In this document: positions 9,295 to 15,104 of the stretch, piece after piece
Numbering within the stretch: position 1 is the first letter of the stretch
Layout: each line of letters starts with the position of its first letter
Source of the DNA: Paenibacillus sp.
GTDB taxonomy: Bacteria > Bacillota > Bacilli > Paenibacillales > YIM-B00363
Assembly: GCA_031181325.1 (NCBI GenBank)
Contig: JAPSKX010000020.1
Span: 1 to 44,119, forward strand
Direction: 5' to 3'
DNA: 44,119 nt
The notes under the pieces: model-generated
The model's database searches: none
Told to the model about the DNA's origin: nothing
What the model saw: the letters and a program-made list of their open reading frames with translations, nothing else
Position numbers and translations under genes: made by a program

Positions 9295-10692
9295 ATGGGC
9301 AAGCCCGACCGCAAGACATTCGTGGACCGTTCCAATCGATTGATCGCGCACATCCGATCGAGTCTCGCCAACGGCACCTATAAGGTGGGGGATTATTTGC
9401 CCTCGGAGGTCGCGCTCGCGGAGCGGTTCGAGCTGAGCAAGAACTCCGTTCGCGCGGCGATGGGGACGCTGGTGGAAGAGGGCTTGATTCGGAAGGTGCC
9501 GCGGGTAGGCACGCAAGTCGCCGCCGTCGGCCGTCCGAACGCGCTGCGCATAGGCGTATATCCGTCGCTGTACGCGGACGCGATGATGCGGGAGCTATTG
9601 GCGTCGTATCGCGCGGAGCATCCCGAGGTCGACGTCGAAGCCGTGACGCTGCCGTATTCGAATCCGGAATCGATCCGGCAGCTGCTGGCGTACGGCGTCT
9701 TGGACGTCGTGTTGTTGAACAATCTGGACTATTTATATTTCAAGGATAACGGGCTGCTAGGGCTGCTCGAGCTATATCCGCCGGAGGAGGCCGCGTTCCC
9801 GTTCTTGAACAAGCTGTTCGCGGAGGCGACGCAGCCGACTCGCGTCCGATTGCGGCCGTTCGTCTTCTCGCCGGTGATTCTGTGCTACAATCGCGATCAC
9901 TTCCGGGAAGCGGGAGCGTTCGAGCCCGACGGCGGTTGGACGTGGGACGATCTGAGGCAGGCGTCAAGAAAGCTGGCCCAAGCGAATCGGTACGGCCTGT
10001 TCTTCCATCTATCGTCCACCAACCGTTGGCCGATCTTTCTGCTGCAGCACGGCGTCTCCTTCGATCGGGAGGGCGGGCTTCCGTCGCCGAAGCCGCTCGA
10101 AGGACTGGAAGCGCTGCGTTCCGTTCGAGAGCTCGTTCACGAGGACGGACTGTTTCCGCTGATGCTCTCGTTCGGCTTGCACGACGTCGAGCTGCTGTTC
10201 AAGCAAGGGAAGGCGTCGGTCATCCTGACGACGTATTACCGGTTGAACGAGCTCGCGGACGCGGAGTTCGCGTTCGACGTCGCGCAGTTGCCGCGTTCAA
10301 GGAACGGCCGAGGAGATACGCTGCTTCTGTGCACCGGCGTCGGGGTAAGCGCTTCGACGGCGCGGAAGGAGGAGGCGGAGCGTCTGGCGGCGCATCTGCT
10401 GTCGCGACAAGCGGCGGAGACGATTCGGCGCGGCACCTTCACGCTTCCGGCCGACAAGCGGGCCGCGGACGAGGCCGCTCCGGAACGGGCCTGCGCGCCG
10501 AGGCGATTCGAGGCATACCGCGAGATCGTTCCGAATTACGCGACGTACGACGAGTTGGGGCTAAGCGTGCAGGAGATCGAGACGTTCGGCAAATGTCTCG
10601 AGCAATACTTCTCGAAATTAGTCGATGAAGAAGGTCTGCTTGAACTATTTCGCTCGCAGGCGAACGAAGGGAAGCCGAGCCCGCCGAGATGA
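9295..10692 (+). CDS. GntR-type regulator fused to a solute-binding-protein domain
   Basis: A 465-residue protein with two parts. Residues about 10-78 are a GntR winged helix, with the signature IRSSLANGTYKVGDYLPSEV then LAERFELSKNSVRAAMGTL and EGLIRKVPRVGTQV. From about 84 to 450 the sequence looks like an ABC extracellular solute-binding domain (SBP type 1): LLASYRAEHPEVDVEAVTLP, WTWDDLRQASRKLAQ and LLFKQGKASVILTTYYRLNE. There is no signal peptide, so the SBP-like part must act in the cytoplasm as a ligand sensor. LacI-type regulators use a related fold, but GntR fused to a type-1 SBP is unusual. The start has an AGGAGAG site. The gene lies directly before the large secreted protein, its most likely target; the sugar or other ligand is unknown. 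Confidence 0.85.
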   Translation: MGKPDRKTFVDRSNRLIAHIRSSLANGTYKVGDYLPSEVALAERFELSKNSVRAAMGTLVEEGLIRKVPRVGTQVAAVGRPNALRIGVYPSLYADAMMRELLASYRAEHPEVDVEAVTLPYSNPESIRQLLAYGVLDVVLLNNLDYLYFKDNGLLGLLELYPPEEAAFPFLNKLFAEATQPTRVRLRPFVFSPVILCYNRDHFREAGAFEPDGGWTWDDLRQASRKLAQANRYGLFFHLSSTNRWPIFLLQHGVSFDREGGLPSPKPLEGLEALRSVRELVHEDGLFPLMLSFGLHDVELLFKQGKASVILTTYYRLNELADAEFAFDVAQLPRSRNGRGDTLLLCTGVGVSASTARKEEAERLAAHLLSRQAAETIRRGTFTLPADKRAADEAAPERACAPRRFEAYREIVPNYATYDELGLSVQEIETFGKCLEQYFSKLVDEEGLLELFRSQANEGKPSPPR

Positions 10693-10694
10693 AA

Positions 10695-10734
10695 CGTCCG
10701 TCTTGCCCCCCCTTAGGGAGCAAGGCGGATGTTT
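10695..10734 (+). terminator. Intrinsic terminator of the GntR/SBP gene
   Basis: CGTCCGTCTTGC (10695-10706) pairs with GCAAGGCGGATG (10720-10731) using two G-U pairs, followed by TTTT. It starts right after the TGA at 10690-10692 and separates this gene from the large secreted-protein gene. Confidence 0.85.
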
Positions 10735-10755
10735 TGCGTTGCGACCATTTTCACA

Positions 10756-10784
10756 TTGCTATTCCATAATTGAATCATTAGAAT
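10756..10784 (+). promoter_or_regulatory. Sigma-A promoter of the large secreted-protein gene
   Basis: TTGCTA (10756-10761) and TAGAAT (10779-10784) are 17 bases apart. Transcription would start about 90 bases before the GTG. The transcribed leader is AT-rich and full of TGAAC/GTTCA motifs, listed separately. Confidence 0.6.
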
Positions 10785-10863
10785 GAACTACAAATGAACC
10801 ACAGGAGTAGTGAAGATTGGTTCATTGGTTTACTATGTGAACTACATGAGTTCCAGTAAGTTC
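10784..10863. repeat. TGAAC/GTTCA motif cluster, candidate operator array
   Basis: TGAACTACA occurs at 10784-10792 and again at 10838-10846. AATGAACCA (10793-10801) and TGGTTCATT (10818-10826) form a perfect 9-base inverted repeat with a 16-base spacer. AGTTCA follows near 10859. The motifs begin at the last base of the -10 box and fill the leader up to about 20 bases before the start codon. This would suit multi-site binding by a repressor such as the adjacent GntR/SBP protein, or an RNA hairpin. No protein-binding evidence exists. Confidence 0.45.
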
Positions 10864-10880
10864 AATTCACACGAAAGGTT

Positions 10881-13800
10881 GTGAAGGGATTGATCCACTA
10901 CGTTGTCCGTCGTTGGAAGAAAGTCGCTTCCGTGGCGCTGGCCGCGGCGTTGGGGGGAGCGCTCGCTCTGCCGGCTGCATCGCTTCCGAGCGCGCAGGCG
11001 TCGGAGCCGATCGTCGTTCCGAGAACGTTCTCGGCTCCGGAGGATCTCGGAACGCAGGTAACGGCGCCGAATACGTTCAACGCCGCATTCGGCACGGAGG
11101 ACGGGAAGGACGTCATGTACACCACGGTCGCGGGATCGGCCGTCCATTCCGCCATCTTCAGCGTCGTCGATCTCGACGCGAACGAAGTCGTCCGCGAGCT
11201 TCCCTTAAGCGGCGGAGGACAGTCCTGGGGGCATGTCATCGACTCGGCAGGCCATGTGTATACCGTAGCGGGCAATGTTTTGTATGCGTATTCACCCGCG
11301 ACGAAGCAGGTTCGCACGATCGGCGTCGTGCCGGAGGCGACTTCGCTGTACTCGATCGTCGTAGACGAGCGGGACCGCGTCTACGGCGGCGGCTATCCGA
11401 GCGGGAAGGTGTTCGTCTACGATCCTGCGACGGATCGGCTCTCGCTGCTGACGGGGCAGCTCGCGGCCGCGCAGCAATACGTCAGAGGCATCGCCTACTA
11501 TGACGGATATTTATACGCGGGGACCGGAACGAAGGGCGGCCTGTTCAAGGTCGATCCGGCGGACGGGACGAAGACGGAGATTCCTTTCCCGGAAAATGCG
11601 CTGTTCGCATCAGGCGACGCTCCCACCGTGTATTCCATGAATGCGGTCGGGCATTACTTGTTCGTGATGATGAGCACGAGCCCGACGTCGCTCTTCATTT
11701 ACGACATGAAGAACGAGCGTTGGGCGAAGGTCGCGGAAAATTACCGGGGGATGTACGTCTCCCCGGCGAAGGACGGCAAGGTGTATTTCCCGGCCGACGG
11801 CGAGCTGAAGTCGTTCGACCTTGCGTCGGAGACGATCGCGGGCACGGGGATCCCGTTCACGACTTACATTCGGACGGGCGCGTGGGTCGAGCTGCAGGAT
11901 CAAGCGCAGTTCCCGGGGACGTCGCTCGTGACGGTGACGTTCAACGGCGCGCCGCTCGTCGCGAATCTCGAGGCGGGCGTCGCGACCAGCCTTCCGTCGA
12001 TCATCTCGGGAACGCCGGTGTCCATTCAATCGATCGTCACAGGGCCCGACGGCAAGATTTATACGACAGGGTATCAGGGGACGAAGGGCGCTCGGTACGA
12101 CATCGATTCCGGCGCGATCGAGCTGTATAAGATGGGGCAGGCCGAGGGGATGATCGCTTGGGGCGACAAGGTCATCTACGGGGAGTATCCAGGGGGCTAT
12201 ATCTACGAGCTCGATACGAAGCTGCCGATCGGCGATCGGAACCCGAAGTCGATCTATCATATCGGCGGTACGCAGGACCGCCCGTTCGCCTTGGCGGCGT
12301 CCGCCGATCGGCTCTTCATCGGGACGATTCCGAAGACGGGCGAGCTCGGCGGCGCATTGACTGTATACGACGGGACGACGTGGAAGGTGTTCGAGGAGAT
12401 GTTCCGGCCCGGCGGCGAGCTTGAAAATCAGAGCGTTATGGGGCTCGCGTACCACGACGGCATGCTGTACGGCTCCACGACCGTATGGGGCGGTCTCGGC
12501 ATCGAGCCGGCGGCGAGCAAGGCGAAGGTGTTCGTCTGGGACGTCGCGGAGGAACGGCTCGCGGCGGCGTTCGAGCCGAACGTCGCGCAATCGGGCGGCG
12601 TCGGCGTTCGCTCCATCGGCGGGTTGACGGTCGGATCGGACGGACTGCTATGGGCGGCCGCGTACGGCACGATCTTCGCGATGGATCCGGCCGACGGCTA
12701 TAAGGTCGTGAAGCAGAAGGAAATCTATCCAACGAATTGGGATTTCAGCCATTATTGGGTGCCGGTGAAGCTGCTCTGGGACCCGAAGGGCGACGGCATT
12801 CTGTACACGACCCTGGGCAGCACCGTGACCGCCGTCGATACGAATACGATGGCGCACGCGCAAGTGCCCGGCACGAAGACGAACTTGATGACGGTCGGGC
12901 CGGACGGAAACTTGTATTTCAACACGGCGGATATGCTGAAGCGGATTGCGGTATCCGAGGAGTTGCCGCCATTGTACACGGACGTCGCGGTGCCGATCGC
13001 GAACGGCGGCTTCGAGACGCGGACGTCCAGCGGGTTGATTTCCGGTTGGGAGAACGTCGGGCAGGTGACGGCCGACAGTTACTACGAAATCAGCGACGCG
13101 CGATCGACGGAAGGCGGCAGCAGCCTGCGGGTGGTCGATCCGCTAGATAAGCAGGAGGTCGGCGTCATCTCGGCGCCGTTCGCCGTGGAGCCGGGCATCG
13201 AGTACAAGGTTTCGGCGGACATCTACTTAACGTCCGGGCGGACGATCGCCGCGATGCGGTATTACGACGAGAGCGGGCAGGAAATCAAGCTGTCGCCGGC
13301 GCCTGCGGCGTATCACCAAGGCCCGGCCGGCGCATGGAGCGCCGCGAGCTTCAGCTCTCTGGCGCCGGCGGGGGCCGCTACGGGCAGAGTCGTCCTGTTC
13401 TGTTCGCTAGGCTGGACGACGGACGCGTATTACGACAATGTGAAGGTGACGAAGAGCGTTCCGTTCGAGCTTCCGCCGGAGCAGCCGGTCGCCGGTCAGC
13501 TGAAGCTGACGAATCCGGGCTTCGAGCAAGGCGAAGGGACGTCGATCCCGGGCTGGACGCTGCGCAATCCCGGCAATTACACGGCCGACGCTTACGCCCG
13601 ATCGTCGTCCGACACGGCGAAGAGCGGCGACCGGAGCTTGCTGCTCTACGATAACAGCACGTCGATCGAAGTGGCGGTCGAATCGGAGCTGATCCCCGTC
13701 GTCGGCGGCAAGACCTATACCGCATCCGTGGATGTGTATCGGGGGGATTATCCGCCGGGGCGCAGCTCCAACCGACCGATTCTGCAGACGCGGTATTACG

Positions 13801-15104
13801 ACGCGAACGGCGCGATGCTGAGCACGAGCGCCGCGCCCGGGCCATGGAGCAAGGAAGCGACCGTGCCGTTGAACCGATGGGGGACGGAGACGCTGACGAA
13901 CGTCGCCCACGCGAACGCGAAATATATGCGCGTGTTTATGGTGATCCCGGCGAGCTATGTAGGCAACGTCTATATCGACAATGCGCAGGTGTCGACGACG
14001 CTCGCGCCGGACGAGGTCGCGTTGCTCCGCATGTACGAAGAGCCCGTGTCGCACGTCGCCGCGGGCGGCGACGTCGTCTTGCGCGCGTCGGCATCCGAGG
14101 GCTCGAGCATTGTCGTGGAAGAGGGCGGCGTCGTCGTGGCAGGGGTTCCCGCCGCCGGTCTCGATACGCCCGTGACCGTAACGGTGCCGTCGCCCGCGGC
14201 GGGCGACCGCGAGTACGACGTGTATGCTTTGAAGGGAATCAGCCGAACGGAGTCGTATGCCGTGTCCACGACGGTGCATGCGCTTAGCGATCTGTCCCTT
14301 CCGTCCGATACAGTGTCGCTGCTGACCGGGGAGACGAAGCCGATTGCGGCGTCGGCCGCTTACGGTCCGTTGTTCGCCGACGTCGTTCCGGAGGTGACCG
14401 TGATTTCCGGAGACGCGGTCGTCGCGAACGGCGACGCGGCGACGGGCGTCTCGGTCGGCGAAGCGGAATTGAGCGTCGCGTACGGCGGCTTGCGGAAGAC
14501 GTTGCGCGTATCCGTTACCGAGGGCGAGTTGGCATCGATTCGGCTTGCGCTGCCGAAGTCGACGCTGGCCGTCGGCGAGTCGGTCGCGGCCGCGGTGTAC
14601 GGCATATACGACAATCCGTTCGTCGGCCCGCGCGAGGTCGTGCTCGATGAGGGCGTGACGTTGACGGCGTCGCCGGACGGCGTCGTCTCGATCGACGGCG
14701 CGGTCGTCACGGGCGCGGCGTTCGGAAGCGCGGTCGTCTACGCCGAGTACGAAGGCTTGTCGGCGTCAGCCGCCATCGAGGTCGAGCGCGGCGGCGGTCC
14801 GCCGGCTCCGAGGCTCGCGGCAATCCGTCTGGAGCTGTCGGATACGCGGATCGACGTCGGTCAGCAGGCGACCGCTCAAGTGTTCGGCGTATATACCGGG
14901 GCGTCGCGGCCGGTCGCCTTGACGGATGAGGTCATTCTCTCCGTCGATGCCCCCGGAATCGTCAGCGTCGACGGCTTGACGCTGACGGGGGTCGGCGAGG
15001 GGCACACGCACGTCCGAGCCGAATACGGCGGGAAGTCCGCTGCCGCCGCGCTCGTCGTGCGAAGCGCGGGCAAGAACGGTCCGAAGCGTTCCGAAGGGGA
15101 ATGA
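10881..15104 (+). CDS. Large secreted beta-propeller / carbohydrate-binding / Ig-like protein
   Basis: A 1407-residue exported protein. Residues 1-40 are a signal peptide with a twin-Arg stretch and the cleavage site SAQA-SEP. About 41-700 is a long run of propeller-like blades with recurring DPATD, YDMKN, DGKIYTTG and VWDVAEE elements. Two galactose-binding-like (CBM4_9-type) jelly rolls begin at NGGFETR (about 707) and NPGFEQG (about 877). A beta-rich domain (about 1040-1135) and three Ig-like (Big_2-like) repeats complete the C-terminus. There is no LPXTG, SLH or membrane tail, so it is probably released or loosely bound to glycan. No hydrolase active site is recognised in the propeller. 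The start codon is uncertain: GTG 10881 has AAAGG only 2 bases away, while TTG 10890 is better spaced. Confidence 0.82.
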   Translation: MKGLIHYVVRRWKKVASVALAAALGGALALPAASLPSAQASEPIVVPRTFSAPEDLGTQVTAPNTFNAAFGTEDGKDVMYTTVAGSAVHSAIFSVVDLDANEVVRELPLSGGGQSWGHVIDSAGHVYTVAGNVLYAYSPATKQVRTIGVVPEATSLYSIVVDERDRVYGGGYPSGKVFVYDPATDRLSLLTGQLAAAQQYVRGIAYYDGYLYAGTGTKGGLFKVDPADGTKTEIPFPENALFASGDAPTVYSMNAVGHYLFVMMSTSPTSLFIYDMKNERWAKVAENYRGMYVSPAKDGKVYFPADGELKSFDLASETIAGTGIPFTTYIRTGAWVELQDQAQFPGTSLVTVTFNGAPLVANLEAGVATSLPSIISGTPVSIQSIVTGPDGKIYTTGYQGTKGARYDIDSGAIELYKMGQAEGMIAWGDKVIYGEYPGGYIYELDTKLPIGDRNPKSIYHIGGTQDRPFALAASADRLFIGTIPKTGELGGALTVYDGTTWKVFEEMFRPGGELENQSVMGLAYHDGMLYGSTTVWGGLGIEPAASKAKVFVWDVAEERLAAAFEPNVAQSGGVGVRSIGGLTVGSDGLLWAAAYGTIFAMDPADGYKVVKQKEIYPTNWDFSHYWVPVKLLWDPKGDGILYTTLGSTVTAVDTNTMAHAQVPGTKTNLMTVGPDGNLYFNTADMLKRIAVSEELPPLYTDVAVPIANGGFETRTSSGLISGWENVGQVTADSYYEISDARSTEGGSSLRVVDPLDKQEVGVISAPFAVEPGIEYKVSADIYLTSGRTIAAMRYYDESGQEIKLSPAPAAYHQGPAGAWSAASFSSLAPAGAATGRVVLFCSLGWTTDAYYDNVKVTKSVPFELPPEQPVAGQLKLTNPGFEQGEGTSIPGWTLRNPGNYTADAYARSSSDTAKSGDRSLLLYDNSTSIEVAVESELIPVVGGKTYTASVDVYRGDYPPGRSSNRPILQTRYYDANGAMLSTSAAPGPWSKEATVPLNRWGTETLTNVAHANAKYMRVFMVIPASYVGNVYIDNAQVSTTLAPDEVALLRMYEEPVSHVAAGGDVVLRASASEGSSIVVEEGGVVVAGVPAAGLDTPVTVTVPSPAAGDREYDVYALKGISRTESYAVSTTVHALSDLSLPSDTVSLLTGETKPIAASAAYGPLFADVVPEVTVISGDAVVANGDAATGVSVGEAELSVAYGGLRKTLRVSVTEGELASIRLALPKSTLAVGESVAAAVYGIYDNPFVGPREVVLDEGVTLTASPDGVVSIDGAVVTGAAFGSAVVYAEYEGLSASAAIEVERGGGPPAPRLAAIRLELSDTRIDVGQQATAQVFGVYTGASRPVALTDEVILSVDAPGIVSVDGLTLTGVGEGHTHVRAEYGGKSAAAALVVRSAGKNGPKRSEGE

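Follow-up and report, generated by a model that had tools for sequence, protein, structure and literature searches.

The stretch of Paenibacillus sp. DNA analyzed here (the window; 44,119 nucleotides, contig JAPSKX010000020.1 of assembly GCA_031181325.1) encodes a regulator in which a GntR DNA-binding domain is joined to a solute-binding-protein (SBP) fold, and a large secreted protein is encoded just downstream. The locus raises the question of what such a regulator senses and which gene it controls. The features that bear on the answer are collected in Table 1.

Table 1. Features of the regulator-propeller locus (positions in the window)
Feature	Position	Strand	Remarks
GntR-SBP regulator, 465 aa	9295..10692	+	winged helix, linker, solute-binding fold
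GntR DNA-binding domain, residues 14-75	9334..9519	+	recognition helix SKNSVR with Lys49-Asn50
Solute-binding-protein fold, residues 81-463, putative sugar sensor	9535..10683	+	Pfam, AlphaFold, structure comparison
Promoter-like TTGCTA-17-TAGAAT of propeller gene	10756..10784	+	consensus match only, 9/12
Putative operator 1, GAACTACAAATGAACCACA, 11-bp-period direct repeat	10785..10803	+	directly after -10 box; core identical in two same-genus orthologs
Putative operator 2, GAACTACATGAGTTCCAGT, weaker	10839..10857	+	second site
Secreted protein, 1407 aa, putative target gene	10881..15104	+	propellers, CBM_4_9, signal-peptide-like N-terminus (by eye)

The architecture that an earlier note had read at 9295-10692, i.e., a GntR helix-turn-helix fused to a complete type-1 solute-binding fold and lacking a signal peptide, is real, as both Pfam matches and recurrence of the fusion in other genomes (below) indicate. 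Specifically, two Pfam families exceeded their gathering scores: PF00392 (GntR) at residues 14-75 (54.9 bits against a cutoff of 27, E 6.7e-15) and PF01547 (SBP_bac_1) at residues 98-374 (48 bits against a cutoff of 26, E 2.3e-12). Of the 12 Pfam families listed at E<=0.1, SBP_bac_1 and SBP_bac_8 matched the C-terminus, and none was an FCD, UTRA or aminotransferase effector domain, Peripla_BP or SBP_bac_5. A profile of 54 regulator sequences found 5f7v (the Listeria SBP Lmo0181) as best match (E 1.6e-39) along with sugar-binding proteins of ABC transporters, while its N-terminus also matched GntR repressors such as YvoA. At the structure level, the AlphaFold model (pLDDT 89.6, pTM 0.81) aligned over residues 81-463 with 1eu8 (Z 37.2, rmsd 3.1 A, 369 residues aligned), with many other sugar SBPs being similar, and 5f7v was a Foldseek match to it (E 2.1e-21); the predicted C-terminal fold, on which the note had staked its proposal, therefore matches periplasmic binding proteins. 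Invariant residues of the SBP part across 54 paralogs include P110, D137, Y198, N199, R244 and P333. No signal peptide is found in the first 13 residues of the sequence, and with the GntR domain starting at residue 14 there is no room before it for an export signal. Moreover, the frame is kept at 75% identity, in identical gene order, in two genomes of the same genus and is therefore not a chance open reading frame.

Several known regulators share part of this design. The sensor of AraR is of the GalR/LacI kind, whereas that of the GntR-SBP regulator has the SBP_bac_1 fold, the maltose-binding type of ABC transporters. As described in the accessible part of the literature, AraR of Bacillus subtilis is similar in combining a GntR winged helix with a sugar-binding, periplasmic-protein-like domain in a one-component sugar regulator. 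SgrR and DsvR (enteric bacteria and Vibrio) likewise carry an N-terminal helix-turn-helix and a C-terminal solute-binding domain and are cytoplasmic, according to the accessible part of PMC13060122; they show that cytoplasmic regulators can make use of an SBP domain, but differ in having SBP_bac_5, a non-GntR DNA-binding domain and single regulators instead of paralog arrays. Transporter SBPs have the fold in common with the regulator, which unlike them has no export signal or lipobox and, in the window, no permease match among the five genes on each side of it, whereas permeases do stand beside several paralogs. GntR proteins are divided by effector domain into the FadR, HutC, MocR, YtrA, AraR and PlmA types, and in the accessible portions of these descriptions none of the six has an SBP_bac_1 sensor, which agrees with the suspicion that this effector domain is unusual for the family; a survey of GntR companion domains mentions none either in its accessible text. 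Literature searches (with subscription journals mostly outside their scope), including one directed at GntR regulators of polysaccharide use in Paenibacillus, found no paper on a GntR-SBP fusion. What emerges is a one-component regulator of the GntR family that differs in its sensor, is paired with a secreted protein and has a putative operator of regular 11-bp direct repeats; it would belong to a GntR subfamily that we did not find described.

How widespread is the fusion? Three strong regulator paralogs and one weaker were found in the window's own genome, and regulators were present in three of six genomes of the genus, at 3, 10 and 9 copies (E<=1e-30). Across the order, 92 of 296 sampled genomes had a regulator match at E<=1e-40, the fusion being full length and, in most of those listed, in a single open frame (a few count one stop, as at the frame end); these order-wide surveys scored up to five regulator and up to four propeller candidates per genome. 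Among 398 genomes sampled from the phylum, three matched the regulator at E<=1e-25, all of them in the window's order. With a sensitive profile 17 of the 398 matched at E<=1e-40, and the 14 outside the order all start at profile position 74 or later, i.e., they are SBPs without the GntR part, so no full-length GntR-SBP fusion was found outside the order in this sample. The fusion is restricted to this lineage in the samples searched, and the named relatives of the regulator are Paenibacillus species. As far as this sampling goes, the fusion therefore appears to have arisen in Paenibacillales.

The neighbors of these fusions, which the earlier note had suggested looking at, include paralogs of the secreted propeller protein. 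The linkage counts are confined to the three genomes in which every candidate was scored. There, each of the 22 regulators (E<=1e-30) had a propeller paralog no more than 16 kb away, where about 1.2 would have one by chance; per genome the counts were 3/3, 10/10 and 9/9, with about 0.1, 0.5 and 0.6 expected. Within 5 kb the counts were 2/3, 7/10 and 6/9, and conversely 24 of the 29 propellers were within 16 kb of a regulator. Propeller paralogs are multiplied in the same genomes as the regulators; a further genome of the genus has a propeller paralog (L066, G004:C14) and no GntR-SBP match at E<=1e-30. Furthermore, the distance matrices of the partners were correlated over 23 adjacent pairs (the 23 of 56 regulators with a propeller frame of 580 aa or more no farther than 8 kb away): the Mantel Pearson r was 0.56, which none of 5000 permutations reached, and the Spearman coefficient was low (0.24). 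The two families are thus linked.

Gene surroundings were counted at those 46 of the 56 loci for which 6 kb of DNA or more was available, and the resulting neighbor figure of 25/46 is biased upward, as some stretches were drawn wide to take in a known propeller. Around the paralogs are encoded ABC permeases, SBPs, two-component systems, heparinase II/III-type and family 8 polysaccharide lyases, an esterase and sugar-modifying enzymes, and the regulator-propeller pairs often lie inside polysaccharide-lyase/ABC-transporter clusters. The window pair, with no adjoining ABC transporter, two-component system or lyase, is flanked by unrelated genes (YwhD, an M1 peptidase, an S33 hydrolase and a penicillin-binding protein), in an order kept in two related genomes. 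The note had proposed a self-contained sense-and-secrete unit: the tie to the secreted neighbor is supported by the linkage and by a putative operator next to the neighbor's promoter, but "self-contained" is less certain, many paralogs sitting in larger clusters. The pairing of paralogs and the 11-bp rule described below go beyond what the note had seen.

The secreted neighbor itself probably binds a glycan. Residues 31-705 were modeled with a pLDDT of 90.3 as tandem beta-propellers, which span about residues 41-695 and are followed by a CBM_4_9 domain at residues 706-797 (Pfam). Single propellers, e.g., 2qc5 (Z 28.4), were closest in structure, while over the whole propeller length the likeness was to the sensor domains of the heparin-sensing BT4663 and BT4673 (Foldseek to 3ott, E 4.1e-19; profile to 3va6/3ott, E 2.5e-13). 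Those Bacteroides hybrid two-component glycan sensors belong to polysaccharide-use loci and have tandem propellers like the protein here; their propellers, however, are the sensor half of a membrane kinase, whereas here the propellers form a separate secreted protein in which Pfam found no kinase domain, and the proposed sensor is the SBP domain in the cytoplasm. Two observations on the family are added: i) a QDRPFA motif (435-440) and an NQS motif are nearly invariant in 34 propeller paralogs, where they could belong to an active or binding site; ii) a 2114-aa frame near the weakest regulator paralog of the window's own genome (L070:10558-16902) matches the propeller family as a giant relative.

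Candidate binding sites were sought in the 112 regions flanking 56 regulators that share less than 70% identity (94 unique sequences reduced to one per 70%-identity cluster), after dropping duplicate loci, tblastn pieces that start after query residue 45 or score below 60 bits, and frames outside 380-560 aa. A pattern-free period test was used because an ACYA pattern applied to 20-kb loci had missed the non-ACYA paralogs. Direct repeats of period 11 occurred in 38 of the 112 regions, compared with a mean of 15.4 +- 4.2 regions for 22 other spacings (highest 25, at 10 bp) and 11.8 +- 3.4 (maximum 22) in 100 dinucleotide shuffles. ACYA pairs told the same: 28 were spaced at 11 bp in the flanks, while each of the other spacings between 5 and 30 had 0-7 and shuffles had 2.5 +- 1.4 at 11 bp, and none at 11 bp was present in 77.7 kb of coding DNA. 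Intergenic DNA adjoining the regulators held 14 such pairs vs a background of 2.0 per spacing, while other intergenic DNA held five vs 2.9, three of the five being upstream of propeller genes or operons. Thus 11-bp direct repeats are enriched beside the regulators, though in 25 of the 56 non-redundant loci neither flank had one (7-of-8 rule). Other paralogs have different half-sites at the same 11-bp period, e.g., TACATCA, TGACTCA and AACATAA.

Judging from these sequence patterns, the regulator probably binds the 11-bp direct repeats. An argument against this is that GntR operators are palindromes more often than direct repeats. Precedents are nevertheless given in the accessible parts of the literature: the MocR proteins GabR and PdxR, thought to act via head-to-tail dimers, NanR with its (GGTATA)3-repeat operator, and FarR and NagQ. 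The MocR and NanR effector domains are aminotransferase-like or FadR-type, unlike that of GntR-SBP, and those descriptions, as far as accessible, contain no 11-bp spacing rule. The known GntR consensus has TGGT/ACCA boxes in its accessible description, and the TGGT-type boxes of the candidate sites found here would fit it.

In the window, the "motif-rich leader" of the earlier note turned out to contain direct-repeat boxes (10785-10857) that recur beside related regulators. Operator 1 is predicted to start at 10785, one base after the end of the -10 box (10784), and the G003 ortholog also has a second site downstream of the first. A 15-bp element, ACTACANNNNNACCA, which is an ACYA direct repeat of 11-bp period, recurs downstream of the window regulator and its orthologs. 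When 28 sites were placed relative to the end of the -10 box, many lay at -46/-45, at -3 to +4 or at +15 to +17, i.e., next to the -35 box, next to the -10 box or shortly after the start; four of the 28 had no promoter match, and some others were scattered. In the window's own genome (5.08 Mb), the propeller promoter holds the sole exact match to the operator pattern. Allowing up to two mismatches gave 24 matches vs 32 for a reversed control, which reveals no wider regulon in this genome; the one-mismatch matches were at C194:37133 and C274:4806, and only the exact match is informative because the weaker ones do not exceed the control. An inverted TGGTTCA box (10818-10824) between the two putative operators could represent a third box. 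In the DNA separating the regulator and propeller genes no intrinsic terminator was predicted, although by eye a hairpin and a run of T can be made out at about 10697-10738.

We consider it probable that the regulator is a one-component, sugar-responsive repressor of the secreted glycan-binding propeller protein and acts via the 11-bp direct repeats. Under such a mechanism the GntR winged helix of the cytoplasmic protein would bind TRGT/ACYA half-sites that are repeated head to tail 11 bp, or one helical turn, apart; the solute-binding fold would release the DNA on closing around a carbohydrate, which is probably an oligosaccharide taken up by the cell. With the operator directly after the -10 box, transcription of the propeller gene would be blocked until the ligand is present, and derepression would lead to production of the secreted tandem-propeller, carbohydrate-binding protein. 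The regulator belongs to an expanded Paenibacillales family with up to ten paralogs per genome, each linked to a propeller paralog. Repression is proposed because of the position of the site, and a sugar is the predicted ligand because of the fold and the gene company of the paralogs.

That the repeats are bound by another regulator, of the AraC/YesN type or a response regulator, with the GntR-SBP site lying elsewhere, appears unlikely. Direct repeats with a 10-11-bp period are commonly bound by AraC-type regulators and response regulators, an 11-bp period being usual for the AraC and OmpR/PhoB types, some of which occur in related clusters, and several regulator paralogs have genes for AraC-type response regulators and for histidine kinases next to them. 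However, the window neighborhood has no AraC-type or response-regulator gene, the repeats are concentrated in the intergenic DNA adjoining the GntR-SBP gene, one site type goes with Lys49 (though not phylogenetically independently), and the boxes match the TGGT/ACCA core of GntR sites as accessibly described. An activating role of the regulator is likewise improbable: sites of some relatives abut the -35 box (-45/-46 from the -10 end), a position that can suit activators, but in the window, as in its closest relatives, the site follows the -10 box immediately. Moreover, most GntR proteins are repressors. We give little credence to the SBP domain being only a dimerization or structural module that senses nothing; the window locus does lack a dedicated transporter, but the fold is full and of high confidence, its residues include invariant ones across 54 paralogs, and SBPs are usually monomers. 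Finally, an annotation artefact, by which a transporter SBP gene was mis-joined to a GntR gene, is refuted by recurrence of the same full-length fusion in 92/296 genomes of the order, common as plain SBP genes are beside the paralogs.

If the regulator is indeed a sugar-responsive repressor, it and its relatives would make up a family of switches that respond to sugars and have a DNA code that can be read, in the large genomes of soil bacteria, for which regulation of glycan use is poorly mapped. The operator rule would then allow targets to be predicted from sequence, the pairing would hint at a function for a large secreted propeller family, and the modular SBP-plus-GntR design might be usable for sugar biosensors.

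As for the code itself, an ACYA site was found with 18 of 27 regulators that have Lys49 and with two of 29 that do not, and only two phylogenetically independent pairs were obtainable for this comparison; a Lys49 specificity code in the recognition helix is therefore a suggestive hypothesis that lacks phylogenetic independence. A broader proposal, to which we assign somewhat less than an even chance, is that these proteins may be a further GntR subfamily, confined to Paenibacillales and binding head-to-tail on 11-bp direct repeats. Its up to ten paralogs per genome would be insulated by the recognition-helix code (Lys49 for ACYA; Asn49 for others, e.g., GACTCA or ACATCA), and each would control its own secreted tandem-propeller glycan-binding protein, as a Gram-positive counterpart of the Bacteroides systems that pair a sensor with surface-glycan proteins.

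Further repeats were observed at individual loci. In L064 and L069 (G002:C6 and G003:C42), whose clusters hold the most diverged regulators (recognition helix SRVSVR), ATACAAGT/ATACATGT repeats of 11-bp period lie upstream of a heparinase-type lyase, and in L064 also upstream of a permease gene. The SNASVR-type regulators of L132, L134 and L135 share a TGACYCATA direct repeat of 11-bp period after the gene, which is exact in L132 and L134 and looser in L135. In L056 (10742-17661), two tandem propeller genes and a short propeller-like frame are upstream of the regulator, and two ACCAGA-type operator sites precede this run of propeller genes.
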